A DNA stretch of 64,000 nucleotides, from assembly GCA_021234155.1 (NCBI GenBank), contig JAJEKV010000051.1, positions 4,902,698-4,966,697 of the forward strand. Reading direction: 5' to 3'. Below the pieces are notes generated by a model, which saw nothing but the letters and a program-made list of their open reading frames with translations, searched no databases and had not been told where the DNA came from. The stretch comes from Isoetes taiwanensis (taxonomy: Eukaryota > Streptophyta > Lycopodiopsida > Isoetales > Isoetaceae). The stretch's first letter is position 1. Every line of letters starts with the position of its first letter. Of this stretch, positions 7,513 through 64,000 are shown one piece after another. The position numbers and the translations under genes are program-made.

Positions 7513-7666
7513 ATAATCCCTATTCTATTTGCCTGATATCATGTGGGTCGCATTATTAGCATGGTTGCCTAACCCGAGGTGCACGATTTCATGCAATTCT
7601 AGCCTACACACGTGTATGCCACGTCTATCTAACGTGTTTTTCGTTTCCTGTTTGATTGACGGCTCT

Positions 7667-8400
7667 ATGGTTCCTATCCAAATTTGTGCTGTCAGAGGAG
7701 CTAATAGGATTTTTAATGAGCTACCTGGAGTGCTAAAAGCAGATGATGAAAAAATCGCTCAACAAAAGTGAGTGCTTTCCATTACTTAGTATCAAATTTG
7801 TCATTTCTCTAAATACTGTCATGCCGCCTGTTTTTGAAAAAGAAGAAACCGTTCAGCAAAAGTGAGTGCTTTTTATATACCATTAGTATCAAATTCGTCA
7901 TCTCTCTAAATACTGTCGTGCCTCCTGTTTTTTTGCTATGGCTCGGATCCGGATTTGTGCTGACGGAGGAGCTAATAGGCTTTTTAATGAGCTAACTGGA
8001 TTGCTAAAAGCAGATGATGAAGAAACCGTTCAGCAAAAGTGAGTGCTTTTGATATACCATTACTTAGTAATCGTCATCTCTCTAAATACTGTCATGTCTC
8101 CTGTTTTTGAAAAAGAAGAAACCATTCAGGATAAGTGAGTGCTTTTGATATACCATTACTTAGTATCAAATTCGTCATCTCTCTAAATACTGCCATGCCT
8201 CTTGTTGTTTTACTATGGCTCGAATCCAGATTTGTGCTCATGGAGGAGCTAATAGGATTTTTAATGAGCTACCTGGATTGCTAAAAGCAGAGGATGAAGA
8301 AACCGTTCAGCAAAAGTGAGTGCTTTGGATACCATTACTTAGTATCAAATTCGTCCTCTCTCTAGATATTGTCATGTCTCCTGTTTTTGAAAAGGAAGGA
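7667..8400 (+). repeat. tandem array of a thiamin pyrophosphokinase-like exon
   Basis: Three copies of the same exon-plus-intron unit start at 7667, 7938 and 8215 (spacing 271 and 277 bp). Each has ICAxxGANR, an FNEL segment, LKA and DDE, then a splice donor GTGAGTG. Between full copies lies a second partial repeat (GAAAAAGAAGAAAC... then GTGAGTG) near 7835-7870, 8106-8145 and 8382-8400. So both a 275-bp higher-order unit and a shorter inner repeat are present. Confidence 0.8.
7938..8038 (+). pseudogene. TPK: thiamin pyrophosphokinase exon fragment (best copy)
   Basis: Translation from ATG 7938 gives a short exon with RICADGGANRLFNEL, which matches the N-terminal substrate-binding signature of thiamin pyrophosphokinase (ADGGANR-x-x-x-EL). 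The enzyme converts thiamin and ATP to thiamin diphosphate in the cytosol. The exon ends at a GTGAGT donor. The copy at 7667 has AVRGANR and that at 8215 AHGGANR, so both have changed the conserved Asp. I found none of the following exons, which would carry the KPDVIKGDMDS motif, so this is a gene fragment that was then tandemly amplified. The family call rests on one short motif. Confidence 0.6.
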
Positions 8401-9839
8401 AAACTAGTAAAGAAAAAAACCAACATCAGATATGGGACATAAATTAATGCCTGTTAGGTTCTATACGCAAAGGTCTCGTTTAATATTACAAGAAACTTAT
8501 CACGGCGGCTAAGGCCGCCGCGAACGTTTCTCTTCCCCAACTCTTCTATACGTGTTAAAACATGCAGAATTTGAACCTGTTTTTTTTTGCCCTGTGTTCA
8601 GTGCCCACAAGATAGAAGAATATTGACCATAACGGCTCGTTACGAAAGATGTTTTGTATTCAATCAAAAGAATCTAAGTTCCGAACATATAAAAATTGAA
8701 CTATGTTTGAGCATAGAGAATTCTAACCTCTGTAGTTGCCAATATATCTATGCAAAATGGTTATTCAAAATGCATATGAATAAAACATGACCCATTAACC
8801 CAATAGCTTTCCATATGGTAAGAACAAATTTATGATATGCATCATGGAGATGGTCCGTCATGCAATATTGTCCAACACGATTATTTGCTCTGCTCAATGT
8901 ATGATCCTTTGGAAATTAGATACACTATAAAGATCCACAATGGCATCAACTTTGCCGTGTTGTTTAGAAGTAAGCTAAGCATTGTTGCGCATTCTTTAAC
9001 TCAAGCAAAACTGAGGTTGGTATCATCATGCTACACTTCAGTAGATCTACCCGATACATAGTTGTTTCATAGTCTTAGCTTCATAGTCATTTGTGTACAT
9101 GCTGACTCATTTGATCTATGTGTGAAGGTGAAATTATGCTTCACACTAACATTTGTGGAAACCATCATATGGCCCCCGTCTGATAACAATATGAAAGCTT
9201 TTAGTACACCATATCCTCTCTAAGAGGGGAGATCTTAGTTGCATAGGTCTCTTAGGGAAAAAGTTCATCTATGCAGAGGTAGCAGATTTTTGTGATGTTA
9301 TGTGTAACTTGAGTGTTCTCCTCAGTACATTTGTATCTACTCAAGTTGCCCCTCATTATATTTCGCATTTGTTATGCTCCTTTGTTAGAGTCATCTACAT
9401 AAAAAGTTGAGCCTTTGCTTTTGGTCAACAAGGAAGACTGGATAAAGAAGATTGGATTGGCATACTGATGCTTGAACCTTTTGTGAATTCGCAAGTTGAT
9501 GTTTGGGCCTATAAACATCATGGTGATGATCCACATGAGCAGTTTGGATGAAATTTGAGTTTATGTAAAACAATGCGGTGATGATGCAAACTTTTAATAT
9601 ATGTGAACACTTAAGATGACTACAAATTTGCAACATATAGGGTCAATAAAGAAGCGGAAAGGCATTGAATTCTAATGAGAAAATCAATACATAAATACAA
9701 CAAAGGGACAATAAAGGAGCAGAAAAAGCATTGAATTTTGATCATTAAATTCACGAATTGTATTCAAATGAATAGAACCAAGCAAAAAATGGATCAATTT
9801 GTAAGCTCCATAATACATAACCTCCGGAAGACATTAGCA
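8401..9839. other. no gene recognised; AT-rich, dispersed repeat at 8485-8640
   Basis: No protein family or splice-consistent gene could be read in this stretch. Positions about 8485-8640 resemble 44076-44230: both start ACAAGAAACTT, continue CGTTTCTCTT and share similar text around AATTTGAA and GACCATAAC. A short GC hairpin (CGGCGGC, TAAG, GCCGCCG) sits at about 8503-8520. Confidence 0.5.
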
Positions 9840-10140
9840 AGTTACAACTACAAACATCAAAAGTCAACTACATTCAAATTCCTTATAGCCAGGCAATGCT
9901 CCACAACACATACGAACGTCACAACTACAACATCAAAAAATCCATTCAAATTCCTTATAGCCGGGCAATGCTCCACAACACATAAGCAAGTCACAACTAC
10001 AACATCAAAAGTCCAATACGCTCAAAAATGCTCGCAACACCTAAGCAAGTCACAACTACAACATCAAAAAATCCAATACGCTCAAATTCCTTATAGCTGG
10101 GCAATGCTCCACAACACGTAAGCAAGTCACAAGTACCACA
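9840..10140. repeat. short tandem repeat, unit 59-77 bp
   Basis: The phrase ACAACTACAACATCAAAA recurs at 9844, 9921, 9993 and 10052, with a decayed fifth copy near 10129. Most units add a TTCCTTATAGCC...GGCAATGCTCCACAACAC block. Unit length varies because that block is missing in one copy. No coding function is apparent. Confidence 0.85.
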
Positions 10141-10149
10141 ACACAAGCT

Positions 10150-11770
10150 GGTTTTTGCGCCTTCTCGAATTTCAAGCTCATGTCGGTGCCAGACATCATC
10201 CGATTATTGCAAAAGTCTCATATCAAAGATTTAGTGAATGGATCTCGAAAGATGTACCTAGTGCCTCTAAAAAGCTAGAGTGTCACCGCTTTGCGGTGTT
10301 GTCCGAGGGAGTAAGGGAAGAGTTATCATCAATTTTAGATACATTGAAAGCTCGAGCAGCTCCAGCTCCAACAACAATTACCTTCTGATGACATATTTTC
10401 GTCACCGATTGTCAAACCATGCTGCAAGCTTCGTATTCACCGTGGTTGAGGTGGACCATCATGCGATCTTAAGTGTGCCGAGAACTTATCTTCCCGTGCG
10501 GTCCTGGCTATTTTACTGGAGGTTATTTAGATTTCTCACGATTTCGTGTGTGGTTATCTCTGCCTTTGCGCTCCTTCAATTTTCTCCTTTTCAATCCATC
10601 AAGTTATTGGCAAAAACTTTGTCCCTGATTATGTTTGATAATAGTGATACAAAGGAGTCTTTGGTGTCTAGAGGGATTGATCCTATTGGTGGGGAGTATA
10701 TAATGTACCAAAGATTATTCCCCGGCTTTACACCGTGTATGGTTCGTGGCTTTTAAAGATGCCTTGCCGGGTTTTCAATATCAAATCTTCCTCCGTTTTT
10801 AATGGCTCACGGGCCTATCGAAATTGCATCCGGATTTGGGGTTCATATTTCACATTCTATCATGAATGGCCCAAGGATTTGTGTTTCTATGCCAAGGATT
10901 CGCTTTACCGTAGTGTATAGTGGTTAAAAAGTGGTCCTTGGTATAAGAAATTGGATCTTAAGCTTTGAATGGACCGTAATTGGCTCACTTTATTTCCCCG
11001 ATAAAGAGGCTTTTGGCCGGCTTTCAAAGAGGCCCTCGTGTATCTCAAGCTTTCCGTAAACCTTCGCTTTATCTCAGTTCAAGTTCATGGTGTTAATTCT
11101 CGCACCTACTCATGATCAACCCATGCCGCTTGTTTTACACTCCCGGCTATGGAAGTTGATTTACATCCGGCCCAATGGCACTGCCTTTAGCACCATCCTC
11201 CCCATCTATTGTTCCTTTTACTCGCAAGGTGATGTTTCTAGGAGTGAAGTTGATATCGCCTAGCTCCAACGACGTTGTCTCTAGCACCTAAGTATACTAT
11301 TGTTCCCGTGATTTGTACCTTCACATGCACCTATTGTTCCCTTTATTCCTCAAGGTGACACTTCTTCTTCCCCCGATACGCCTAAGATAGTTATGGATGA
11401 TTGTCCTAATAGTCCGAGTAATAGAGCGTTATGGCAACATGCCACTTGGAAAAAGGTTGCGCCGGATGGGGTCTCGCAAGGAAGAGGTCAAAGAAGGTAT
11501 GCCGTGTGAGGCCCCCGGCCATAATCTCCGCAGTTCGAGCAATACGATGTCTAGTAATGATTGTATTGATGTGGTAGAACATGCTGATTGTGATGAGGCT
11601 ATTAAACGCCTCAAGATGGTACAAGATATTTGATTATGTACTGTGTATGGGTGGTTTTGCTTAGGGGACTTCGTAGTCCTCTAGGTTTTGAGTCCCATTT
11701 CACAGACCTCTTGTATGTTTCTTGATTTTTTCATGAATAATAGACTGCCGTCCTTCAACAAAAAAAAAAA
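10150..11770 (+). mobile_element. possible non-LTR retroelement remnant with poly(A)
   Basis: The stretch contains overlapping broken open segments but no domain I can name with confidence. The last coding-like piece, ending near 11633, has a basic stretch followed by acidic residues, as plant LINE ORF1 proteins often have. It is followed by about 125 bp of 3'-UTR-like DNA and an 11-nt A tract ending at 11770. The A tract directly abuts the first long direct repeat at 11771. Endonuclease and reverse transcriptase are absent. A processed pseudogene is an alternative. Confidence 0.35.
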
Positions 11771-13981
11771 TCCAGTCCACACTAGCCTTAGCAAAAGCCC
11801 ACTAGCCATGACATCTACTATGGTCAATCCCATATGTAGTATTATCAGCCCATACTCGGAATATTTCCATGATGGCACCAACTATCTTAGGACATCAACT
11901 ATTTAATCTATAGCATCGTTTTATGACATGATACAAAGCCAAAGTAGGTCAAAGAAGACAATAGCTGGTTCTTTAGACATAAGTGATATCCAAACCGAGA
12001 AGATTTAAAGGTTTATCAATAGTGGTCCATCATCAACACTTAAACCATAGTACTGATGCCGTCTTACAACCTAGAGTTAAATCCTTATTTATTTCGAAAT
12101 AAGAATTAAGGCTACATATAATACACTTGTTATCTCTTGATCTATTAGCATGGTTTTTTGATGTAGAACACAAATGTATAAATAAACCATGCTCATAGTA
12201 AAGGCATCACACTGAACACCAAACAGTACTGTAAACATGATCATTTACTATTGTATTCAATAAAAGGCAGCCAACAGGCCCATAACTATAACAGTATATT
12301 GAGTACAAAAATCATTGCCACGCATAATAGTTCAAGGGTAAAAGGAGTAGCATAATAAACGTTGCTAATACCAGATGCTTATAACCATAGCAAAGTAGCA
12401 CGTAAATAAAAAGCCGAACATATAATCATTCGTAATGTTTCATATGCCGTAAACTTTTCCCAATGTAAACAAGGGCAATGATAGATCAAAATGTCAAAAC
12501 AAAGAATACTAAGATAGGTATTTCTTCCCTTTTTCCAACTGAAAACCATTTGTAGTATTGAGGATAGTTTCCTTATAAACTTCCCATAGCCATCACCTTC
12601 TTCCTTAGCCAGATATGAACTTGAAAGTAAAAAAACCACAATAAGAGGAGAAACCGGTACCTGCAGCCAACCAACACCACATTAGCAAGAATTTGGTAAT
12701 GAGTGAGGGGCCAAAAGGTACATTAGGTTTCTCAGCTCTTCGCTGATCACCTATTGTAGCCTTTTTACCCCAAATCCATTCCATGCTAAATAAAAGATGC
12801 AACAGTGCTTATTTTAATACCACGTATATAAGTTTTAAATAACCAAAGCAGATATTTCATGTGGTACAAGAAAAACCAAAGATGAAGCAAACTACTTATA
12901 AATGAATCACAAGTTCGGGATGCAAAATCCAGAGTACATCTCTATATTCTCAAGTGTATGGTTATGTTTAAGCAATCCTTACTACCTCCTGGACCAAGAT
13001 AAGTATCAAACATGCAGGAACAAGTACTTAATCAAATAATTTTTAAACATACTACACTCAGATCGATCAAACCTGAAAGTCTTCATTATCATATTCAAGG
13101 TCTTCTTCCCCGTATCGTGGGACCCGATTCCTGATGTTGGCGCCAGTTTGCTTATGCCCTTCACCATCATACTTATTCATATATCCCTGCTTCTGTGCCC
13201 CAGATCCTTGATTGTAAGACCAAGGGCGCTTAGACCCAGCATAGTTCCCCGAATCCATCTCACTTTCCACCGGGCTTATCATTATAAGACAAGCACGAAA
13301 TTCTTTTGCAAGCCACTCCTCCTCTAGAGGGCTTTCTTTCATCTGAACTAAATGGGTATCCGTCTCAATCAAACTCCTTATAATATATGTGCATATTGCA
13401 TTTATTCCTCCCATTTTTCTCAGTACTACTAGGGTAAGAGATGCAATACTACAAAGACGATAACCAAAAGATCAAACTGTGGGAATCTAGGCCACAAAGA
13501 CTAAGTTTATCTTATATTCAGGCCTATGTTACATGCCGAAGCCTTTAATCTTATAGTATCCATAAATCCAATGTCGATTATCTCACCTTGAGTAGCTTAA
13601 TCTTGTGCCGTGATTTGATATCTCCCACGATTCATATCCATCTCGTCCAAAAGTCATAGCCTAGTAGCCGTGGACCAAACATGGTTTGTGTAGAGCCAAA
13701 GAAAGCCCGGATTTTGGTACCCTAAAATCGAACTTTACAAAGAATTTTCGTTATTCGATAAATAGACTTAAGCGCCTACACTTGTAATATGATTTTGATT
13801 TACATCCTCATAATTCCATAACCACTATACATACCATATACCATTAACCAAGTCCATGATATGGTGCAAAAACATATATTAACCATGTATGAGCAACCCA
13901 CGCACAAATGCCAATGGTTTCCAAGTCCAACCGCCAATAATACCACAAATGTATAATACAAGAAGACAAGCATTTTTAAAA
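11771..13981. repeat. left copy of 2.2-kb direct repeat
   Basis: From TCCAGTCCACACTAGCC to GACAAGCATTTTTAAA the sequence matches 18166-20386 almost base for base at an offset near 6395. Differences are mostly small indels. It is the better preserved copy for coding: the minus strand keeps an open 115-codon segment at 13414-13067 that is broken in the right copy. The left edge directly follows the A tract of the preceding element. Confidence 0.93.
13067..13414 (-). other. coding-like exon inside the direct repeat
   Basis: An open minus-strand segment of 115 codons, rich in Gly, Asn, Arg and Glu in its second half (a YNQGSGAQKQGY stretch and an EDLEYDNEDF tail), ending at a possible donor after DFQ. 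I recognise no family. A second exon-like piece lies at 12785-12661 on the same strand: acceptor TTTAG, 125 nt open, then a GTACCG donor. It contains MEWIWGKKA and WCWLAA. Together they suggest an intron-containing gene within the repeat. The right copy has frameshifts in the same places. Confidence 0.4.
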
Positions 13982-14312
13982 CCTACCTCCCGCCGAGGGT
14001 AGGTATGGCCCAATTCATATGGTCAGTGCATTCATAGGAGGGTGGACCCCTACCAAAGACAAAATAGGGTCCATCCCATACCCTATTAGTAAATATGCAA
14101 CCCGTAACTTATGGAATAGAACTTATGGAATAATGATCATAACTCGAAAAGTTGAGTGTAGATCATTACATAAAGTACCTTAGGTCATAGAAGCAATTTC
14201 TCCATCAAAGTCATCTTGTCGATTCGAGTCCGTGAAATGTATTATTACTTATGTAAAATAGGACCTTATTCTTCAAACCTCGAGCATCAAATCCATTTCG
14301 TGAAGCATCTAA

Positions 14313-16361
14313 TCACCCACCGATGTCTTCGCAGCAGCCTTTAATAGGGCATGAATTGACATACGATATGGTAATACTTGAGAGACAATAACGCTTTCTA
14401 GCCCTCAGATAAGGTCTACAGCTATCAACATGTACAAATTTAAGCGCCCGAAAGGGTAGAATATCCCTCTTGTCATATCTTGTGGTCTTATAGACCCCGG
14501 TAATATTATTGACAATCTCAATTGATAAATTCAGGAAATTAACCTTGTAGCCCCGGGGGTTTTCCAAATTCATACCTTGTGTGCAAAGATCGCTCTTCCT
14601 TGATTCCAAGTCCGCTTCATATCATATATATTGAGCCCATCCATTGAGTCTCCAAGTACTGTCTTCTGAAATTCTCTAAATATGGGACAGTTTATAGCAA
14701 GCAGGTCATCAATATATCTAAAAATGTATTTAAACATACCAATTTCCTTGTATCTGCCCTGAAATGCTAGTTTTTTAATGAAATTTACCTCAAACCAGTA
14801 AGATATAGGTTGCACCAGCTTGGGCTACATGCAAATCCCATGGGGATCCCACATACCCAAGCTATTTTTTTCACCCATTGCAATGAAACAGCTTGGACAA
14901 AAGCCAATGATTAGCTCTAATGAAGATATGGTGTTCCATTTTAGACCAAAGATTTGCCTTTTGGATCCATCTTAAACCACTTAGTGCTGAACCCATTAGG
15001 GCCCCGTTTAATCCATAATTCATTGTTCCGATGCCTACTTTTCTGCCATTTCCAAGAAGCATTAATAATCAATTCTATGACAGTGCAGATTCCATTATCC
15101 CCAAGTAGTGGAATGTTTTCATAACATCTGGTTATGTCAGCCACAAAGATGTCATGAATTTTGGAAGGAAGGTTAATAACCACATCATAAACCGAAAGTT
15201 AATCACCCAACTCGTATTAACTTTCCCTGGCATTAAAGTGTGGACATTGGCACTTAACATCATGGCAATGTCAGGCCAGCAATTCAAAATATCATTGAGC
15301 CCAGCTGTAACTATTTGTGAGATCTCCGTATATATGGTATTATGGGCATTAGTGATCCATCTATAGTCATGCTTATGTGCCTTGTATACCCCAAGTAGGT
15401 AAGGCAGCCTTTCAGATTCAAAGCCAATATACCCAATTAAATGTTGTATATCCTCCTTAATCTTTGTCTCAGATCTCCTTTGTCGCTTAGGGATGATCAA
15501 AAAATCATGGTCGTTCGCCTTTTCTAATGCCATATCCCTAACATGTTCAGGGCATATAAAGGCTGGATTGTTAGTGGCCTTATCAACTCCTGAGACATAG
15601 AAGTTAGTTGCAAGCCATTCCATGTTTCTGATAACACTTGGATCCATCAAAGCAAATTTTCGCAGACCCTCTCATTTTTCATGGCGATTTTAATTCTCGC
15701 TGATGGCAATATCAAGAACCCTCACTTTGAAGTTTACCTTTTCATCATCACTAATATCTGGATAAGAGAACCTATGTGCCTCAAAGAAGGAATCACATAC
15801 TTTCCCAATCTCCTCTTCAAATTCTTTAATGACCAAAACCCTATTAGGAATATGATTGAGGCCTTTTCTAAACATATTTCTGAGCATTATATTTCTGACA
15901 ATAGTAATCTTAGTGGTACGTACATGCCCAATCATAGGGTCCACAAAGGTGGCCACATTAGGATTTTTGCAAGGGCAAGGGACCTTAGTGTCTTGTGCAA
16001 AAATGTAGAAAGGTTTATAAAATAAATCACGGAGATTTTCACAATACTTCCAGCCAAACATGGTGTTGTCCATCATGTCCTGCCCAATCTCACTGAAACA
16101 CTCAGTAGCTACATTGTGAAAAATCCTTGGTAAACAGATTTGATCCTGCACCTTGGACAAAAAGGTACAGTGTATGATTCTAAACTTGTTTTTGGGCCTC
16201 TCATCTATCAAGGAGAGTCTTCCTTGACAGTTCTTGGTAATTGACTTAGACAACTGCATCATAAACATACTTTTAATACTAGTAAAGCAAGAAAAACCCA
16301 AAAAACAAAATTCTGGCTTTACCACCCCAAATGGTAGTGGATTTTTTTTAAAAAAAGCCAA
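14313..16361 (-). pseudogene. reverse transcriptase of unusual class, frameshifted
   Basis: Read 5' to 3' on the minus strand. First comes a region with CPCKN, then DPMIGHV and RKGLNHIP (about 15845-15977). A segment with LPYLLGVYKAHKH and RWITNAHN follows (about 15350-15420). Motif A is FVADITRCYENIPL (near 15100-15150), motif B GIPMGFACSPSWC (about 14800-14850) and the catalytic box FRYIDDLLAIN at about 14690-14720 (YIDD at 14705-14716). A C-terminal stretch with YDKRDILPF is near 14460-14480. The two catalytic Asp of YIDD and the Asp of motif A are intact. Frameshifts occur near 15670, 15185 and 14785, so the copy is inactive. The fold is clearly an RT, but the family assignment (Penelope-like or a separate lineage) is uncertain. 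Confidence 0.75.
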
Positions 16362-18165
16362 GTGGCAATGGTCTGTAATAACAGAGTGGATTAATCATAG
16401 AGTTACCCAGCTACATTTCAGAGTATATCCTACTATGCACAAAATCAGTGTAGATTATGAAGAAGGTACAAACATACCATGTAATCATGTTGAGTAGTCC
16501 AGCACAACCGCTCCAGAAGTAGCCTTCCCACGAGTGTCAGTGCCTTTGTTCTTGGTGACTGAATATCCAGCAGGTATTTGTGTGCCAATGCACTCAACAG
16601 ATGTACTATCCGAACCAGCAGGAGCCTCATTAACCGGCTTTGTAGTCATCCTTGGTGGTCTTGTAACACTGCTCAACTTACTGCAAGAAGTGCTAGCAGA
16701 GGTCTTACTAATGGTTCTGCTACTATTGTTGCTAGCAGCCTGACCCATATCCTTCAGGAAAGAAATGGGTTTGATAGTCTTTTCGCATATATCCACCATT
16801 TTACACCTGCTGAGATTCAGTTTCAGATCTGACCAAGGATCAGCAGCTAGCTTCATGGTCATATGGATTAAAATCTCCCTCACATCCAAGTATGCAATGA
16901 ATGCCATGATACTAGTCTTCAGAGGACCTTTGAGGAAGCCCCTGAATGTAACCATCTGTGCAGCTGCAGACATGTCTGGATAAAGAGTATCCAAGTTGTT
17001 TAGCATATACCGCACTCCGGATCGCTTTTTATGTCATATTGTCCCGACATGTCGCTTTTTATTTTTCTTTTTGTCTCCTCCTTCACACACACATTTAATG
17101 TAGGGGCATAAAGTTCTCCATATTCTTTTTAGATAGAATTCATCCCCGCCAATATTGGGGTATGCCATGTGCCCCTTCCCGCTAACATACATATACTTAC
17201 TCTTGGTGCACTTTTTATCAAAAAACGAGTATCCACATTGCACTTGATCTCTTCTTTGTTCACAAATTTCTCCAATGCATGGTCTGCAAGTATTGGCGCA
17301 GAAGAATCGGGTCTTTAGTCGTCACCAAGTAGGATCCATGTATCTTTGCTAATAGGAGCAAGTGCACCAAAATTTTGGTCCTCCAAATCCCTTGATTACA
17401 TAGAAGAGCATGGTTCTCTACCAGCGCCAGGGATTATAGGAAAGTTAAGACACTGCTCAAAGTGAACTCAAAGGTATCAATGTCACCAAATTCCCATCCT
17501 CAATTATTGTTGCTATTCAGATTAGCCTTATCCCTGCTCAAGAAGTATTGATTCAAAAGGGTCATCCTCATCGGCCCTCATTGCAAGATTGTAATCGCGA
17601 CTTGTTTTAGCATTGATCTTATTGGCCTTTTCAAGCGCCTTAAGACCAATCAGATACTGACTTTTGCATGTGTCCTCCTCTCATACCCATTGGTAAATCA
17701 AATCGGTAGATTATCAGAGAGTTCATCAACAACCTTGACGATCTTGTCAACGCCATTGCCCCGCCTTTGTTGATAATTGGAAATGCCTTGACCCATTGAT
17801 TGAAACCGAGATGTGAAATGGCAGAATACTGTCCCGGACCCCTGGCTGCTTCCTTTTGTATAATATACTCATGGGCCCTGATTTGTCTGATGCAAAGATA
17901 GTATACTCGCAGACAAAGATAGTTTGGCACTTCGATTTGAAGTATCCGCACTCTAATATCGCTGAGTTCTTTGTTCCATGTGGGTAACACGGGCTTTCAA
18001 AGGTCGCTTCGCTTCCTCGTATTCAAAGCATGATGGTCAAAGTGAATCATACAAATAAACATAGATAACTCATACTGCAAATGTCTTAATGCTATAACAT
18101 TAAATACTTGAGTCCCAGATTTCGGTGACCCTGGTAAGACCAGGGAACTGAAGTTCCTAAAAAAA
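16362..18165 (-). other. upstream coding-like segments of the RT element, family unknown
   Basis: Several minus-strand segments read as protein: 17015-16485 (Ser/Thr-rich second half, ending near a GTATGT donor at about 16475), 17243-17034 (Cys- and Lys-rich), an acidic piece at about 17640-17545 (ALEKANKINAK then ADEDDPFESILL) and 17990-17640. A long pyrimidine-rich stretch ending ATGCAG at about 16255 looks like a splice acceptor leading into the RT part. I recognise no domain. These are most likely N-terminal exons of the same element. Confidence 0.4.
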
Positions 18166-20386
18166 TCCAGTCCACACTAGCCTTAGCAAAAGCCCACTAG
18201 CCATGACATCTACTATGGTCAATCCCATATGTAGTATTATCAGCCCATACTCGGAATATTTCCATGATGGCACCAACTATCTTAGGACATCAACTATTTA
18301 ATCTATAGCATCGTTTTATGACATGATACAAAGCCAAAGTAGGTCAAAGAAGACAATAGCTGGTTCTTTAGACATAAGTGATATCCAAACCGAGAAGATT
18401 TAAAGGTTTACCAATAGTGGTCCATCATCAACACTTAAACCATAGTACTGATGCCGTCTTACAACCTAGAGTTAAATCCTTATTTATTTCGAAATAAGAA
18501 TTAAGGCTACATATAATACACTTGTTATCTCTTGATCTATTAGCATGGTTTTTTGATGTAGAACACAAATGTATAAATAAACCATGCTCATAGTAAAGGC
18601 ATCACACTGAACACCAAACAGTACTGTAAACATGATCATTTACTATTGTATTCAATAAAAGGCAGCCAACAGGCCCATAACTATAACAGTATATTGAGTA
18701 CAAAAATCATTGCCACGCATAATAGTTCAAGGGTAAAAGGAGTAGCATAATAAATTGCTAATATCAGATGCTTATAACCATAGCAAAGTAGCACGTAAAT
18801 AAAAGTCGAACATATAATCATTCAGAATGTTTCATATGCCAGAAACTTTTCCCAATGTAAACAGTGGCACAGATAGATCAAAATGTCAAAACAGCAATAC
18901 TAAGATAGGTATTTCTTCCCTTTTTCCAACTGAAAACCATTTGTAGTATTGAGGATAGTTTCCTTATAAACTTCCCATAGCCATCACCTTCTTCCTTAGC
19001 CAGATATGAACTTGAAAGTAAAAAAACCACAATAAGAGGAGAAACCGGTACCTGCAGCCAACCAACACCACATTAGCAAGAATTTGGTACGAGTGAGGGG
19101 CTGTAGGTACATTAGGTTTCTCACTCTTCACCGATCACCTATTGTAGCCTTTTTACCCCAAATCCATTCCATGCTAAATAAAAGATGCAACAAAGGTTTA
19201 TTTTAATACCACGTATATAAGTTTTAAATAACCAGCAGATATTTCATGTGGTACAGTAAAACCCAGCATGAAGCAAACTACTTCTATAAATGAATCACAA
19301 GTTCGGGATGCAAAATCCAGAGTACATCTCTATATTCTCAAGTGTATGGTTATGTTTAAGCAATCCTTACTACCTCCTGGACCAAGATAAGTATCAAACA
19401 TGCAGGAACAAGTACTTAATCAAATAATTTTTAAACATACTACACTCAGATCGATCAAACCCGAAAAGTCTTCATTATCATATTCAAGGTCTTTCCCCGT
19501 ATCGTGGACCCGATTCCCCGATGTTGGCGCCAGCTTGTTTATGCCCTTCACCATCATACTTATTCATATATCCCCGCTTCAGGCTCCCGTGATCCTGATT
19601 GTAAGACCAAGGGCTTTTAGACCCAAAGATAGTTCCCCTCAATCCATCTCACTTTCCACCGGGCTTATCGGGCTATAAGACAAGCACGAAATTCTTTTGC
19701 AAGCCACCCTCCTCTAGAGGGCTTTCTTCATCGGAACTAAATGGGTATCCGTCCCAATCAAACTCCTTTATAATATACAGCATATTGCATTTATTCCCTC
19801 CCATTTTTCTGTACTACTAGGGTAAGAGATGCAATACTACAAAGACGTATAACCCAACGATCAAACTGTGGGAATCTAGGCCACAAAGACTAAGTTTATC
19901 TTATATTCAGCCTATGTTACATGCCGAAGCCTTAATCTTATAGTATCCATAAATCCAATGTCGATTATCTCACCTTGAGTAGCTTAATCTTGTGCCGATT
20001 TGATATCTCCCACGATTCATATCCATCCATTGCCAAAAGTCATAGCCTAGTAGCCGTGGGACCAAACATGGTTTGTGTAGAGCGCCAGTAAAGCGCCGGA
20101 TTTTGGTACCCTAAAATCGAACTTACAGCAATTTTCGTTATTCTGATAAATAGACTTAAGCGCCTACACTTGTAATATGATTTTGATTTACATCCTCATA
20201 ATTCCATAACCACTATACATACCATATACCATTAACCAAGTCCATGATATGGTGCAAAAAAAATATATTAACCATGTATGAGCAACCCACGCACAAATGC
20301 CAATGGTTTCCAAGTCCAACCGCCAATAATACCCATCTAATGCAAATGTATAATACAAGAAGACAAGCATTTTTAAAAAAAAAAAG
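18166..20386. repeat. right copy of 2.2-kb direct repeat
   Basis: Direct-orientation partner of 11771-13981. It carries numerous 1-5 bp indels relative to the left copy, for example around 18750-18900, 19085-19260 and 19490-19700. It ends in an A tract near 20375-20385. In the orientation of the reverse transcriptase this copy is the upstream one. Confidence 0.93.
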
Positions 20387-29572: not shown

Positions 29573-29774
29573 NNNNNNNNNNNNNNNNNNNNNNNNNNNN
29601 NNNNNNNNNNNNNNNNNNNNNNNNNNNNNNNNNNNNNNNNNNNNNNNNNNNNNNNNNNNNNNNNNNNNNNNNNNNNNNNNNNNNNNNNNNNNNNNNNNNN
29701 NNNNNNNNNNNNNNNNNNNNNNNNNNNNNNNNNNNNNNNNNNNNNNNNNNNNNNNNNNNNNNNNNNNNNNNNNN
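29573..29774. other. assembly gap (N)
   Basis: A run of 202 N. True size and content are unknown. Order and orientation across it depend on scaffolding. Confidence 0.99.
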
Positions 29775-50424: not shown

Positions 50425-51735
50425 TTGCTCTCCTCTCTCTTCCTCTTTTCTCCTCTTTCCTTCTTTTCTCTTCCTCTCTCTCTCTCCTCTCTTTTCTCTC
50501 TTCCTCCCTCCTCTTCATTCTCTCTCTCCTCCCTTTCTTCTCTCTTCCTCTCTTCTCTCCCTCCTCTTTCATCTCTCTCTTCTCTCTCTCCTCTCTCTGC
50601 CTCCCCTTCTCCCCTCTCTCACTCTCTATTCTCTTCTCTCTCTATCTCATCCTCCTCCTCTCTCTCTCTCTCCCTCTCTCTTCTCTCCTCCTCCTCTTCT
50701 CTCCTCTCTCCTCTCCCCTTTTGTCCTTCTTGTCTTCTCTCCTCGCTCCCACTGTTTACCACTGTCTCTACATCTTTCTCTCTCTTTTCCATCCCTCTCT
50801 CTCTCTCTTGTTCCTCCTCTCTCTTCTCTCTCCTCTCTCTCTCTCTGTCTCTTCCTCTCTCCTTTCTCTCTTCTCTCTCCCTCTCTTCTCTTCTCTTTAT
50901 CTTTGCTTCTCTCCTCTCTTTCCCCCTCTCTATTTCTCCCCTCTGTCTTTCTCTCTTTTTCTGTTCCTCTCTCTCTCTCTTCTCCTTCCTCTCTTCTTTC
51001 TCTCTCTCTTCTCCCATGCCATATTTCTTTTTTCCCCTCTCTCTCCCTCTCCTATCTCTTCCCTTCCTCTCATCTCTCTCTCTCTCTTCCTCACTTCTCT
51101 CTTCTTTCTCCTCTCTCTTCTCCTTCCTCTCTCTTCTTCCCCTCTCTCTCCCTCTCCCCATCCCTTTTCTCTCATCTCTCTCATCCTCTCTTCTCCCTTT
51201 TCTCTCCTCTCTTCTCTCTCCTTTCCTCTCTCCTTTTTCCATCTCTTCCCTCCTCTTCCTCTCTCTCTCCTCTCCCTTTTTTCCCTTCTCTCTCTCTATT
51301 TCTCCCCTCTCTCTCTCTATTTCTCCCCTCTCTCCTCTCTCTCTCTCTCTTCCCTTTCCCTCTTCTCTCTCATCTCTCCGAAGTCATCTCTCTTCTCTCC
51401 CCCCCCTCTCCTCCCTCTCTCTCCTCTTTTTCCTTCTCTCCCTCTCTCTCTTCCCTCTCTCCTCTCCTCCTCTCTCTCTCTTCCCCTCTCTCCTCTTTTC
51501 CCTTCTCTCTCCTCTCCTCTTCCCTCTCTCTCCTCTCCTCTCTCTTCTCCTAGCTCTCTCCTCTCCTCTCTCTTCCTCTCTCTCCCCTTTTTTCCTTCTC
51601 TCTCTCTATCTCTCTCTCTGTTCTCCCTCTCTATCTTTCTCTCTCTTTTCTATTCCTCTCTCCCTCTTCTCCTCCTCTCTCTTCTCTCTTCTCCCCCTCT
51701 ATCTTTCCTCTCTTCTCTCTCTACTTTCATTCTAG
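50425..51735. repeat. homopyrimidine tract 1 (CT-rich, ~1.3 kb)
   Basis: The plus strand is almost purely C and T (TCTCTCC, CTCTTCTCTC and variants) for about 1.3 kb. All long Ser/Leu-Phe-Pro-rich or Arg/Glu-rich reading frames here are artefacts of that composition. The tract ends at CTCTCTACTTTCATTCTAGAACGTTC, the same kind of boundary as the other tracts. Confidence 0.97.
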
Positions 51736-52564: not shown

Positions 52565-52925
52565 TTCCCTCCTCTCTTTATCTCTCCTCCCTCTTCTTTC
52601 TCTCTCTTCTCTTCTCTCTCTCCCCTCTCTCCTCTCTTTCTCTCTCCTCTTTGTTTTTACCCCCCCTCTCTCTCTCCTCTCTTTCCCCTTTTTCCCTTCT
52701 CTCTCTCCTATCACTCTCTATTTCTCCCCTCTCTTTCTATATATCTTTGTCTCTCTTTTCTATTCCTCTCTCGTCTCCCTCCTCTCTCTTCTCTCTCCTC
52801 TCTCTCTCCTTTCTCTTCTTTCCCCGCTCTCTCGATACTCCTCTCTCTCCTCCCTCCTCTCTTCTCTCTCCTCTCTCTCTCCCATCTTTCTCCCCCCTCT
52901 GTTTTTCCCTCTTCTCTCTCTAGCT
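52565..52925. repeat. homopyrimidine tract 2 (~0.36 kb)
   Basis: C/T-only on the plus strand with rare exceptions. It ends in CTCTCTCTAGCTTTATTCTAGAACATTC, the shared boundary. Confidence 0.97.
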
Positions 52926-52929
52926 TTAT

Positions 52930-53400
52930 TCTAGAACATTCTAGAATTTGGGACATTCTATTATGAGTTCTTGCAAACTCTAAAAAAACTTTCTGTTTTT
53001 AGACTTGATGTTTTCCCATGGTCTCTGGTTGTTTGCAAAGTTTCACAAAACTTTCTATTTTTGATGAGGTACTTGCCGGGGCACTTGGAACATTCTAGAA
53101 CATTCTATTATGAGTTCCTGCAAACTTTTAGGTAACTTTATTTTTTAGACTATGGTAGTTTCTATTCTTGGTGAGGTGCTTATCGTGAGCATCTGAAACG
53201 CGAGAACATTCTATTTTGAGCATTTGCAAAATTTCAAATAACTTCTTTTTTAGACATTCCAGAAGATCCTAGAATCTAGCACATTCTAGAGATTCTAGGA
53301 CATTCTAGAAGCTTCTGAAACCATCTAGAACATTCTAGAACATCTTAGACCATCTGGTGTTGGCCCTCACACTTAACTATGTCGAACTTCTATTTTTAAG
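52930..53400. repeat. TTCTAGAA / TTTGCAAAGTTTC composite repeats
   Basis: Same modules as at 63-64 kb: TTCTAGAACATTCTAT, TGCAAACTTT, CTTTCTATTTTTAGAC, GAGGTGCTTG..GAGCATCTG. Non-coding. Confidence 0.85.
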
Positions 53401-58499: not shown

Positions 58500-59635
58500 A
58501 TACATTGTTCTAGAACTTTCTAGAACATCTTACATTAACTCTTTTCTAAAATCCCAGAAAACTTGCTATTTTGGGCGATACATTTGCAAATACTACAAAA
58601 TCTTTATTTTGGTTTCTTTATAAACTCTCTATTTTTGATTGATTGGTAAAAAGTTTCTATTTTGGGAGTTCTTTAAGTTATGAGGCAGTCAGGTATTCAA
58701 GATTCCATTTTTAATATGTCAAGGTGCAGAAAAACACCGCATTTTTAGGCAGTGCTTGCCCATGAGACTTTCAAAGTTTAAGTTTGCATTTGTAAGTTTC
58801 AAAAAACTTTCTATTTTTAGACATCTTCAGAAGGTATCTAGAGCATTCAGGCATCATAATTTTTTTGAAAATTCCTGAACTTTCATCCATTTTAGACTAA
58901 GTGCTTGCCAAGAACACACCAGAACATTCTAGAACATTCTATTATAAGTTTGGAAACTTTGAAAACTTTCTATTTTTACCTTAGTTTTAGGCGGCTTGCT
59001 TTGTTTATAGCGTGTAACACATTGTATTAGTTTCAAAACTTTTAGAAAACTTTCTATTTTTTGACCTTGGTTTTAAATTGACACTTGTTTATGGCGTGTA
59101 ACATACATTGTAGTAGTTTGGAACACTCTAAATTCATGAGAGGCATTCCATAAACATTATGGAATAATCCAGAAAGTTTTAAATACATGTTACAAAGTTT
59201 CTATTTTAGAGTGGGGTGCTCTGCTGGGCGCTGTAACACATTGTAGTGGTTTCAGGAACACTCTGGGGTGCTGGAACATTATTCCGCAAACATTGTGAAT
59301 AGTCTGAAAAGGTTTAATCTTACGTTAAAAAGATTTCCTATTTTTAGAGGTAAGTGCTTACTGCTTTGTGTCTAGAAGCTCCGGCCTTGACCTTAAACTG
59401 AACATCCATCTTCATACCAATTGCCTCTTTATATACTGAAAAAAGTCTTTTTTAGCATGAATACATGTGGGATATTTGTGTGTAAACCCTAAATGCATGC
59501 CCCTTTATATCTTGGAAAAGGGCTCTTTTTGCATCTATGCATGTGGATATATGTACCATCTTAGAACTCATTACGCCGCTATAATATTTGAGTTTTGACT
59601 TCTGTTAATGAACTAATGCTAGAAGCAGTGGTAAA
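58500..59635. repeat. composite repeat block with TTCTAGAA and CTATTTTTAGAC modules
   Basis: Contains TTCTAGAACTTTCTAGAAC, repeated CTTTCTATTTTT, GAACATTCTAGAACATTC and GTGTAACACATTGTA modules. From 59385 comes the same CATCCATCTTC..GCATGTGGGATAT block as at 51780-51960, ending in a partial A-box-like GCAGTGGTAA directly before homopyrimidine tract 3. Confidence 0.8.
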
Positions 59636-61258
59636 TCTATCTCTCTGTTTCTCTCCTCTCTCTCTATTTCTCCTCTCTCCTCTACCTTTCTCTATCTTTT
59701 CTTTCTCTCTCTCATCTCTCTTCTTTCCCCTCTCTCTCCTCTCTCTTCCTCTTCTTCCCTCTCTTCTCTCCTCCTCCTATCTTTCTCTCTCCTCTCTCTT
59801 TGTTTCTCTCTCTCTTCTCTCTCCTCTCCTCTGTCTCTATTCTCTCTCTCTCTCTTATTTGTCTCTTCTCTCTCTTGCTCTCTTTTATCCTCTCTCTTCC
59901 ATCCTTCTTCTCTCTCTTCTCTCTCTCTCCTCCCATGCTCCCTTCTCTCTCTCTCTCTATCTCTCTCTCCTCTCTATTTCTCTCTCTCCTCTTCTCTCTT
60001 CTCTCCTCTTCCTCTCTCTTCTCCTCTCCTCTCTCTCTCATCTCTCTTCTTTCCCCTCTCTCCCCCTCTCTCTTCCCTCTTCCCTTTCTCTCTTCTCTCT
60101 CCTCTGTCTCTCTCTCTTCTTTCTCTCCTCCCTCTCCTCCTTCTCTCTCCCTCTATCTCTCTCCTCTCTCTCTCCTCCCTCTTTCCTCTCTCTATCTCCT
60201 CTCTCCTCTTTCCTATCTCCTCATCTCTCCTCTCTTCTCTCTCCTCTCTCCTCTCCTCTCTCTCTCCTCCCATCTCTCTCCTCCTCTCTCTGTTTCTCAT
60301 CTCTCTTCTTTCCTATCTCCTCTCTCTTCCCTCTTCGCTTTCTCTCTTCTCTCTCCTCTCTCCCTCTCTTCTTTTATATATCCTCTTCCTCTCTTCTCTC
60401 TCTCCTCTCTCTCCTATCTCTCTCCTCTCTCCTCTCTCTCTCCTCTCTCCTCTCTCTCTCTCTCCTCCTCTCTCCATCTCCTCTCCTCCTATTTCTCCCC
60501 TCTCTCTATCTCCTCTATCTCTATTCTCTCTCCTCTCTCTTATTCGTCTTTCCTCTCCTTGCTCTCTCTCCTCTCTCTTCCATCCTTCTTCTCTCTCTCT
60601 CTCTCCTCCCATGTCCCTTCTCTCTCTATCTTTCTCCTCTCCTCTCTGTTTCTCTCCTCTCTCTCTCTTCTCTCCCTCTTCCCTCTTCTCCTCTCCTCCT
60701 CTCTCTCCTCTCTCCTCCATCTCTCTCTTCTTTCCCTCCCTCTCCTCTCTTCCCTCTTCCCTTTCTCTCTTCTCTCCTCTCTCTTCCCTCCCTCTCCTCT
60801 CTTCTCTCTCTCCCCTCTCTCCTCTCTCTCCTCCTCTCCTCTCTTCTCCCTCCTCCTCCTCTCCTCCTCCTCTCTCTCCTATCTCTCTCCTCTTTCTGTT
60901 TCTCCCCTCTCTCCCTGTCTCTCATCTCTCTGCTCCTGTTCCTCTCCTCCTCTCTGTTTCTCCCTCTCTCTTTGCAGCTTTCTCTCTTGCCAGATTTCTC
61001 TCTCTCCTCTCTCCTCTCCTCTCTCCTCTCCTCTCACCTCTCTCTCCTCTCCTCTCTCCTCTCTCTCTCCATCTCTATTTCTCCTCTCCCATCTCCTATC
61101 TCTCTCCTCTCTCTATCTCCTATTTCTCTGTCTCCTATTTCTCTCCTCTCTCTCTATTTCTCCCCTCTCTCACCTTTCTCTCTCTTTCTGTTTCTCTCCC
61201 TCTTCTCCTCCTCCTACTCACTTCTCTCCTCCTCTCCCTCCTCTCTTCTCTCTCTAGC
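59636..61258. repeat. homopyrimidine tract 3 (~1.6 kb)
   Basis: The longest C/T-only tract in the window. It ends CTCTCTAGCTTCGTTTCTAGAACATTC, followed by GGGATCATCAAGG. Reading frames of up to about 600 codons on the plus strand and Arg/Glu-rich ones on the minus strand are compositional artefacts. Confidence 0.97.
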
Positions 61259-61369
61259 TTCGTTTCTAGAACATTCTAGAAAGGTTCTGGGATCATCAAG
61301 GCTTTTAATTAATGACAAGATTTCCATTTGTATGGTAAGCTGGACTTCTTGTTATTTGAGAAAGACTGG

Positions 61370-61585
61370 TTGGTCTGAAGTGTGGTAAGTGCAAGTTTGA
61401 GAGCAATATCCGAGTTCAAGTCCGTGGTAAACCAAAAATTTTATCCACCAAACTTGGGCTTTCCAGAAGGCCAAGGCCGCAGACTGACCAGATCGCGCCC
61501 GTGGCGCCTCCTTAATCGATAGGCGTGACATGAGCATGCCAGACTCCACGGACACTATTTTTTGTATATTAGACTAGAAAAGGGC
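61370..61585. repeat. short dispersed repeat, copy 2
   Basis: Partner of 53403-53620. Here a B-box-like GAGTTCAAGTCC is present at about 61412-61423, 30-odd bp after TTGGTCTGAAGTGTGGTAAG, supporting a tRNA-derived internal promoter. It ends CGGACACTATTTTTTGTATATTAGACTAGAAAA. Confidence 0.65.
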
Positions 61586-61659
61586 TTGCGACTGACTCTT
61601 TCCTTTCCTCAAACAAAATGACCTCGACCCAACCTACTTCAGTTGGGCCACCCATGTGC

Positions 61660-62993
61660 CCCTATCTCCATCTCTCTTCATTCTCTCTTCTCTTTCCTAT
61701 CTCTCCTCTCTCTCTGTCTCTTTCCTGCTTCTCTCTTCTCTCTGTCTCCTCTCCCGTCTCTCTTCTCTCTCCACATCCTCTTCTTTCTCTCTCCTCTCTT
61801 CTCTCTCTTGTCCTCTCTCTCTTTCTCTCCTCTCTTCTCTTTCCTCTCTTCTTTCCCTCTAGTTGTTCTCCTCTCTCTCTTCTCTCTTCTCTCTCCTCTT
61901 GCTCTCTCTCCTATCTACCATCTCTCTCTCTCCTCTTTCTCTATTTCTCCTCTCTATATTTCTCTCTCTCTTTTCTATTCCTCTCTCTCTCTTCTCTCTC
62001 CTCTCTCCTCTCTCCTCTCTCTCCTCTCTCTTCCCTCTGTCCTTTCTCTCCTCTCTCCTCTCCCCTCTCCTCTTTCAAGCTGTCCTCTCTCTTCTTCCCC
62101 TCTCTCTCCCATGTCTCTTCCCTCTTCCTCTTCCTCTCCCTCTCCCTCTCCCTCTCCCTCCCGCTCTCTCTTCTCTCCTCTCACATTCTCTCCTCCTATC
62201 TCTTCTCTCTCTTCCCCTTTTCTCCTCTCTCATTTTCTTGTCTCCTCCTCTCTCTCTCATCTCTCTTCTTTCCCTCTCTCCTCTCTCTCTTCCCTCTTTC
62301 TTCTCTCTTCTCTCTCCCCCTCTTGTCTTTCTCTCTCCTCTCTTTTGTTTCTCTCTCTTCTCTCTCTCCCTCTCCTTCTGTCTCTATTCTCTCCTCCCTC
62401 TCTTGTCTTTCTCTCTCCTCTCTCCTTGCTCTTTCTATTCCTCTCTTCTCCATGCTCCTTCTCTCTCCTCTCTATCTTTCTCTCCTCTCCTATTTCTCTC
62501 TCTCTCCCTCCTCTTTCCTCTCTTCTCTCTCTTCTCTCTCCTCTTGTGCTCTGCTCTCTCTCTCCTCCTCTCCTCTCTTCTCTCTCTCCTCCTCCTCTCT
62601 CCTCCTCCTCTCCTCTCTTCCTCTCTCTCTCCTCTCTCCTCTCTTCTCTCTCCTATCTCCTCTCTCTCTATTTCTCCCCTCCTCTCTATCTCCTCTCTCT
62701 TCTCTCTCCTCTCTTCTTCTATCTCTCTCCCTCTCCTCTCTCTATCTCTCTCTCCTGCCTCCTCCTCTTCTCTTTTCTCTTCTCTCCTCCCTCCTCCTCC
62801 TCTTTCCTCCTCCTCTCTCCTCTCTCTCTCCTCTCCCTTCTATCTCTCTCCTCTCTCTATTTCTCCCCTCTCTCTGTCTCCTATCTCTCTCTCTCCTCTC
62901 TCTGTCTCTGTTTCTCTATCTTGTTTCTCTCCTCTCTCTCCTTTCTCCTCTCCTCTCCTCTTCTTCTCTGCCTTCCTCCTCTTCTCTCTCTAG
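61660..62993. repeat. homopyrimidine tract 4 (~1.3 kb)
   Basis: C/T-only tract with inner CCTCTC hexamer runs (near 62130-62160). It ends CTCTCTAGCTTTTTTAGAACATTCTAG, the shared boundary, followed by GGGATCATCGG. Confidence 0.97.
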
Positions 62994-64000
62994 CTTTTTT
63001 AGAACATTCTAGAAGGTTTCTGGGATCATCGGAAGGGGAAGGTTTGAGATGTTACCATAACATTTGCAACCTCCATAACGCATTCTATTTTGAGCATTTG
63101 CAAAGTTTGAAAAAACTTTCTGTTATAGTGGCTTTCTATTTTTGAACTAGTGTTTTACCATGAGCACATTCGAACATTCTATTTTTGAACATTTGCAAAG
63201 TTTCAAAAACCTTCTATTTTAGACTGAAACTTTCTATTCTTAGGCGGGGTACTTGCCGCAGGCACACGGAACATTCCACAACATTCTATTTTGAGCATTC
63301 CCAAAGTTTCAAAAAAAAACTTCTATTTTAAACTGAAACTTTCCTGACCTTCTTGACTGAAGTGCCTACTCATGAGCATCCAGAACATTCTAGGACATTC
63401 CAAAGATTCTAGAACACTCTAGAACGTCAAGAGTATCCTCTCTCTAGCTTTTTAGAACATTCAGAAGGTTCTAGGATCATCGGAGAAGAGAGGTTGAGAT
63501 TGCCGCAGGCATTTGCAGCACTCCGCAACGTTCTATTTTGAGCATTTGCAAAGTTTCAAAAACTTATGTAGATTGGAAACTTTCTATTTTAGGCGGGGTA
63601 CTTATCCATTTCCACAACATTACATCAACATCACAACATTCTATAACATTCTATTTTGAGCATTTGCAAAGTTTTTAAAACTTTCTATTCTTAGGCCAGA
63701 AACCTTCTGTTTTAGGCGGGTACACCCATGAGCCTCTAGGCATTCCGAACATTCTATTTTTGAGCATTGCAAAGTTTTAAAAACTTTCTATTTTAGTGAA
63801 ACCTTCTATTTTAGGCGGGGTGCTTACCCATGAGCACAGGACATTCCTGATATTCTGTTTGAGCATTTGCAAAGTTTTAAAACTTCTATTTTTAGACATT
63901 CTAGAAGACTCTAAGTTTAGAAGATTCTAGGACACTCTATAGAAGATTAAGACATTCTAGAAACTAGAGCCATCTAGAACATTCCTAGAACATCCTAGAC
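62994..64000. repeat. ~100-130-bp tandem repeats, TTTGCAAAGTTTC / TTCTAGAA type
   Basis: The module ATTCTATTTTGAGCATTTGC, then AAAGTTTCAAAAAC, CTTCTATTTTTAGAC, GAAACTTTCTATTTTTAGGCG and GGGTACTTGCC, recurs near 63080, 63177, 63283, 63530, 63650, 63748 and 63853. At 63435-63490 the tract-boundary block CCTCTCTCTAGC..GAACATTC..GGATCATCGG appears again with the homopyrimidine part reduced to a few bases. The array runs off the window. Confidence 0.88.

Follow-up and report, generated by a model that had tools for sequence, protein, structure and literature searches.

A probable Penelope-type retrotransposon family in Isoetes taiwanensis

The 64,000-nucleotide stretch of the Isoetes taiwanensis genome analyzed here (contig JAJEKV010000051.1, positions 4,902,698 to 4,966,697; the window) carries a reverse transcriptase (RT) gene between 2.2-kb direct repeats. 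The element probably belongs to a large and recently active family of Penelope-type retrotransposons, a kind related to telomerase, that would prime reverse transcription by the mechanism proposed below. The RT motif order, the repeats in the manner of pseudo-long terminal repeats (pseudo-LTRs, or pLTRs), tandem copies, putative retained introns, and AT-rich targets all fit Penelope-like elements (PLEs). No class of retroelements stands closer to telomerase than these, yet the origin of their pseudo-LTRs and their choice of targets are poorly understood; the many intact and diverse copies in this genome, with sharp borders, empty sites, and covarying RNAs, make priming, RNA recognition, and repeat regeneration testable.

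A search of the assembly (1,658,258,908 bases in 1,110 contigs) with one RT piece gave 150 scored matches, the window among them, on 83 contigs, from 2,573 first-look candidates. Twenty copies of 10 kb each were fetched, mostly for similarity and long open frames and thus not as a random sample, and five further stretches were fetched later, including two (L040 and L041; such labels denote fetched copies or loci) picked for short open frames. The shared plan, read in the RT sense, is a repeat (R), T7, a stem-loop, open reading frame 1 (ORF1), a putative intron, ORF2 encoding the RT, GGAGGTAGG, T7, and a second R. ORF2 is open over 673 to 720 codons in 15 of the 20 copies, and the ratio of nonsynonymous to synonymous substitution rates (dN/dS) is 0.037 to 0.081 in the 6 of 91 ORF2 pairs with computable dS, indicating strong purifying selection; the ORF1 exon gives 0.065 in the 1 of 21 pairs for which dS could be computed, pointing to strong purifying selection there too.

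A direct-repeat pair fitting this plan is present in 17 of the 20 fetched copies, the exceptions being L020, with only 86 bp at the end of the stretch, and L017 and L026, which have none. The recurrence of the R-internal-R plan led us to reject chance or an assembly artefact as its source. It also makes very improbable that the RT is of a LINE-like or group II-like kind whose repeats are accidents of assembly or of segmental duplication: such an origin would suit the weak matches that general RT models give, but R is specific in sequence to each element and the borders are conserved, and neither an APE nor an REL endonuclease of the LINE type is among the Pfam matches of 15 ORF2 and 9 ORF1 sequences, while the terminal repeats are themselves unlike a LINE. 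The preliminary description had looked to other copies of the RT lacking the repeats as evidence against its reading; the better-preserved copies largely carry them, and the two degraded ones, L040 (reduced to ORF2 plus the end of ORF1) and L041 (a piece of ORF2), show no repeat pair.

Head-to-tail arrays are frequent in the family: eleven pairs of RT matches lie within 12 kb of each other, where 0.16 pairs would be expected, and all 11 are in the same orientation. One such array, on contig C1078, was read through as R-I-R-I-R (I, internal part), with a 6.2-kb stretch of its two units 98.9% alike. Two Rs are solo (L037 and L038): the 6 kb read at each contains neither ORF1 nor ORF2, and a search with R gives no second R alongside. 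Relatives in viral contigs and in bacterial and archaeal genomes were sought with none confirmed, and one phage tblastn search found none.

The window copy

All feature coordinates are positions in the window, and the element lies on the minus strand, which is its RT sense. From T run to T run it spans 11760 to 20385, delimited by the repeats and, at each outer end, by a T11 in the RT sense. The upstream repeat (R1, 18159 to 20385) and the downstream repeat (R2, 11760 to 13981), each including its outer T run, join in a single alignment (18159 to 20378 against 11764 to 13981) of 2,247 columns with 95% identity and 42 gap openings, which bears out the 2.2-kb repeats first noticed around the RT. 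The ORF1 main exon (16488 to 18022; about 510 amino acids in intact copies), the putative ORF1/ORF2 intron (16272 to 16487), and ORF2 (14183 to 16271; about 690 amino acids in intact copies) were mapped from L009, the nearest relative, which is 93% identical over the RT piece.

The window copy is frameshifted, its RT being broken across three reading frames. Against L009 there are 25 gap openings in ORF2 (96.5% identity) and 42 in the ORF1 exon (93.6%, with the exon supported also by the ORF1 alignment). The differences between R1 and R2 are small and clustered, as residual long-read errors would be; the frameshifts may reflect sequencing error or decay. The published genome was built from Nanopore and Illumina reads (1,658.30 Mb in 204 scaffolds and 909 contigs; PMC8566536). 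L009 itself was considered as a 5'-truncated copy, and this was rejected in favor of an R1 split by a nested insertion: at G000:C963:16036657-16045457 its upstream repeat seems to be interrupted by about 6.6 kb, with a 4-bp overlap that is likely a target duplication.

The reverse transcriptase

Pfam RVT_1 matches all 15 aligned ORF2 copies (best E 1.5e-7), although the first member, at E 6.2e-6 and 26.5 bits, falls below the 29.6-bit cut-off. The motifs from which an RT was originally recognized (ADITRCYENIP, GIPMGFACSPSWC, FRYIDDL, CPCKN, DPMIGHV, and RKGLNHIP) are all present on the minus strand of the window, spread over three frames, and are kept with substitutions in one open frame of the intact relatives. 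Invariant among the 15 are CPC (C96 P97 C98 in the numbering of the first sequence), KGL.HIP, DKA.NN, KAHK, and RWITN, together with motif A (ADIT.CYE.IP), motif B (IPMG..CSP.WCN.YLAW), motif C (Y.DD), FLN, DKR, and SCRPY. The order and spacing of these motifs are what we take to be those of PLE RTs (LPKIHK..RPIVS, FDV.SL.TNIP, MGS.LSP, YVDD). The motif B region also resembles that of the telomerase reverse transcriptase (TERT) of the same genome (L029), QVTGIAQGSVVSSLLCSLYY compared with QVSGIPMGFACSPSWCNLYL, the two proteins otherwise giving no significant alignment. We note that two TERT-like loci, L029 and L030, exceed the Pfam threshold. The latter, in which simple repeats abound, may stem from contamination or be a second copy that has diverged.

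Craig et al. 2021 reportedly defines the Naiad and Chlamys PLEs. These elements reportedly have a CxC motif before the RT, an N-terminal GIY-YIG endonuclease, and no hammerhead, are biased toward microsatellites, and are present in spike mosses. The Isoetes family likewise has a CxC before the RT and no detected hammerhead, and it could belong to this N-terminal-endonuclease clade with a diverged GIY-YIG hidden in ORF1. The CPC motif in all 15 aligned copies, the roughly 96 residues between motifs A and B, which leave room for a fingers insertion, and the clade's reported presence in spike mosses, microsatellite bias, and lack of hammerheads are all in keeping with such a placement. We nonetheless think it unlikely, since no GIY-YIG domain was found by Pfam or by six-frame motif search and those elsewhere in the genome lie at least 21 kb from the RT matches.

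ORF1, introns, and endonucleases

ORF1 has no clear relative. Among nine members, none matches a Pfam family below E 0.03 (one matches CTK3 at 0.039), and searches of the PDB gave no credible relative, a Copia virus-like particle chain at E 0.66 not being evidence of one. Conserved within the family are a segment rich in Cys (CP..KC.C, then C) and the motifs D.RFFDK and QKGHMAY, both of them invariant. Its main exon of about 510 codons stops just before a GT donor-like site, which is followed by about 200 bases and a CAG, after which ORF2 opens in another frame. Both the donor-like GT and the acceptor CAG are seen in 16 of the 17 copies displayed, the donor being the part not seen in L026.

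Neither integrase, protease, nor RNase H is present in Pfam scans of seven window pieces, 15 ORF2 copies, and nine ORF1 exons, in agreement with the preliminary description; an HUH domain, sought by these Pfam scans only, was likewise not found. The GIY-YIG domain, which had been proposed as a test of a Penelope-like identity, is missing from Pfam scans of the 15 ORF2 and nine ORF1 sequences and, by motif, from all six frames of the loci. Genome-wide, 121 GIY-YIG matches were obtained (150 scored of 263 candidates), and all of them are at least 21 kb from each of the 150 RT matches. The Penelope-like reading is partly supported, by the recurrence of the repeat pair, the tandems, solo Rs, intron-like borders, and T-tract targets, but not by an endonuclease.

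Similar GIY-YIG domains are themselves repeated in the genome (L031 to L034 and L036; G000 C1030, C1034, C1078, C1079, and C1072). At three of the six loci looked at (L033, L034, and L036), the same strand carries, at a distance of about 1 kb, an ORF for the C-terminal part of a Pif1/UvrD-like helicase, an arrangement as in a Helitron-like element with a GIY-YIG nuclease, with the L033 helicase matching Pfam below the cut-off.

Repeats, borders, and renewal of R

The repeats are 2.2 to 2.5 kb long, begin with a T run, end with GCTAGTGTGGACTGG[AG]TTTTTTT or a variant, and contain both a frame resembling an exon and a structured RNA that is conserved. The coding-like exon originally proposed within the repeats is confirmed; its frame of about 110 to 130 codons ends in an acidic stretch at a donor-like CAG|GT (displayed for L013, L016, L024, and L027). 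In the window, mapping from the open frame of L009 places it at 13070 to 13420 in R2 (95.2% identity, 6 gap openings) and, in degraded form, at 19458 to 19813 in R1 (89.5%, 15 gap openings).

The two Rs of one element are 96.6 to 99.5% identical (seven elements), whereas between elements R is 44 to 60% and ORF2 63 to 81% identical at the nucleotide level (15 comparisons among six elements, gaps excluded). Because R1 and R2 are nearly identical within an element and R has diverged between elements, both Rs appear to be renewed from one source in each cycle. The internal borders are also conserved. At the R1/internal boundary there are seven or eight Ts followed by A in 19 of 21 copies including the window, and we propose that reverse transcription starts at this T7 (18159 to 18165 in the window). 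The internal part ends in CTACGGNNGG[AT]GG[TC]AGG or a close variant followed by T7 to T9, again in 19 of 21 copies by pattern; the window copy is among these, its purine-rich end being followed by T4 (13978 to 13990). The outer T runs are 11 to 26 long at the 5' end (eight elements) and 8 to 27 at the 3' end (14 elements), longer than most of the inner runs, which measure 7 to 8 at R1/internal and 4 to 9 at internal/R2.

The main rival account of how R is renewed is an LTR-type cycle, in which R would be a true LTR restored by strand transfers, T7/AGGAA a primer site, the purine-rich tract a polypurine tract, ORF1 a gag-like coat protein, and the solo Rs products of recombination. The near identity of R1 and R2, the flush ends, the solo Rs, the purine tract directly before R2 in those 19 copies, and the very weak ORF1 match to the Copia particle chain could all be explained in this way. 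A cycle of this type is nevertheless improbable, given that the scans of window pieces, ORF2, and ORF1 found none of the enzymes it would use, that intron-like borders are retained in nearly all copies displayed, that long T runs at both ends and a T-tract target take the place of a short target-site duplication, and that the RT motif order is unlike that of LTR RTs.

Covarying RNA structures

A stem-loop (CCCTGGT-CTT-ACCAGGG) lies just inside the R1/internal boundary at 18129 to 18145. In an alignment of 18 copies its seven pairs are formed in 98.4% of 126 cells, with two-sided changes in three pairs, and nine two-sided cells compared with 2.6 in shuffled alignments, none of 500 shuffles reaching nine.

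A second structured block, of about 185 bases, lies within R and was identified by nhmmer matching and covariation at 18991 to 19174 in R1 and 12600 to 12786 in R2. It is present in one or both Rs of the window copy and of all 20 fetched copies (that of L022 being seen through a joined contig stretch) and in both solo Rs. Since the block is in part self-complementary, its reverse strand gives a weaker match as well. A hand-drawn pairing, derived from the same 21 sequences on which it was scored and thus favored by them, is formed in 93.4% of 587 cells against 88.0% in shuffled alignments, with 26 two-sided cells against 4.8 (0 of 500 shuffles). A pseudoknot in this block was considered but is not claimed. 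Although the hand pairing withstood the covariation control, two-sided changes are absent from its AAAAGG helix, and the fold favored by RNAalifold is a long nested stem with 39 pairs, of which 14 show two-sided changes. At a guess, the block may serve in recognition of the template by the RT. No hammerhead or other Rfam RNA reaches the gathering score in the window or appears up to E 1 in six copies, and the seven matches for L016 (E 0.58 to 3.4) are chance-like and include no ribozyme.

Insertion targets and a proposed mechanism

Targets were read from paralogous empty sites of the solo Rs. The 5' flank of L037 is a host repeat, and a T-rich tract stands exactly at the insertion place in all 10 of the empty sites read, with the flanks joining without loss in seven. 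For L038, six empty sites were read: two (L056 and L057) have a short TATTTTT and four a long T run, one of the four being L053, which shares the contig of L038 at a distance of about 4 kb.

The T7 beside a stem-loop, together with T-tract targets whose other strand is A, suggests priming by an A tract on U7. In the mechanism that we propose, the RT would hold unspliced RNA by its stem-loop, possibly with the structured block in R as a second contact, and a 3' end in the A tract of the target would pair with U7 at the R/internal boundary and so prime the cDNA. At the other border of R, the T7 could help to join the far end to the same tract. A start at the first (R1) boundary would yield a solo R, and copying from the second border of a tandem template, or from a circular R-internal unit, would yield R-internal-R with two identical Rs. 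With no recognized nuclease, the family might use existing breaks or an unrecognized activity of ORF1.

Several observations weigh against this reading or parts of it. Membership of the PLEs, argued here from the RT motif order, is likely, not proven. The RT profiles match no PDB chain at E up to 10, and hhalign of ORF2 against the TERT of the same genome gives E 0.0049 in a single comparison at a probability of 7% over 83 columns, and 0.4% against its first open frame. Weak matches to other RTs are also found, to a group II model (10 of 15 ORF2, best 6e-4), a phage family (12 of 15, best 0.002), Drt3a (3 of 15, best 1.5e-4), and Drt2 (3 of 15, best 0.0016). Splicing between ORF1 and ORF2 is inferred from the sequence of the borders. 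An LTR-type cycle would also account for the solo Rs and for the purine-rich tract that precedes R2. No 5'-truncated copy with a defined junction was seen among the copies: L040 is without R1 and most of ORF1, but deletion or interruption could account for this, and L041 is an ORF2 fragment; nhmmer finds the structured block in neither. The U7 border is not found in L013 or L026, and 34 of 500 shuffles reach the three pairs with two-sided change in the stem-loop. As to the targets, about 28 bases are missing after the tract in L043 and L047, L044 has an extra stretch, L053 differs by a few bases beside the tract, and both tests concern solo Rs rather than full R-I-R elements.

Relationship to known elements

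The Isoetes family resembles Penelope and Poseidon in its pseudo-LTRs, tandem or partial tandem copies, AT-rich targets, putative retained introns, and solo pLTRs (PMC11167929, PMC3846280). A preference for AT-rich targets is ascribed to PLEs generally (PMC12477314), and Poseidon of Anolis uses AT-rich sites (PMC11167929). Reverse transcription of Poseidon, from tandem loci, starts inside the RNA in a stem-loop near the pLTR-ORF junction (PMC11167929); the candidate start in Isoetes lies beside a stem-loop in the corresponding place. Unlike Penelope and Poseidon, the Isoetes family has two ORFs and neither a detected GIY-YIG nor a hammerhead. In Adineta vaga, Penelope has a pLTR of about 0.2 kb that takes in the first 12 codons (PMC3846280), whereas the Isoetes pLTR is about 10 times longer, with its exon-like frame of about 110 to 130 codons.

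Among plants, conifers have both endonuclease-positive (EN+) PLEs, the Dryads, and EN(-) ones, the latter being reported from Selaginella too (PMC9033089); Chlamys elements occur in brown algae (PMC12477816). With no endonuclease domain and two ORFs, the Isoetes family is like the EN-deficient elements of Selaginella and conifers (PMC9033089, PMC6431247, PMC12477314). The well-known EN-deficient PLEs are tied to telomeres, whereas in Isoetes 13 of the 20 fetched copies are over 1 Mb away from any contig end (which may or may not be the end of a chromosome), and the targets tested are T tracts. If truly nuclease-less, the family departs from the picture of EN-less PLEs as living at telomeres. 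We tentatively raise the further possibility, which we hold with less than even confidence, of a third life style, that of an EN-less Penelope-type lineage in chromosome interiors, combining priming by A tracts of nicked or broken host DNA on an internal U7 next to the conserved stem-loop, a coding pseudo-LTR, a new ORF1, a conserved structured RNA that replaces the hammerhead, and the copying of both repeats from a single R on a template that is tandem or circular.

Our literature search found neither a report of PLEs in Isoetes nor an account of this family, which may be catalogued in sources outside that search, namely RepBase and annotated plant genomes. The word Penelope is absent from the main text of the Isoetes genome paper (PMC8566536).

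Other features of the window

The remainder of the window is also repetitive in places. A broken copia element with gag, zinc knuckle, and integrase parts lies on the minus strand at 226 to 2438, and short tandem repeats with units of about 275 and 72 bases are at 7612 to 8401 and 9866 to 10145, respectively. There is a gap of 202 N at 29573 to 29774, and long CT-rich simple-sequence tracts occupy 50427 to 51700, 52581 to 52930, and 59592 to 63142.

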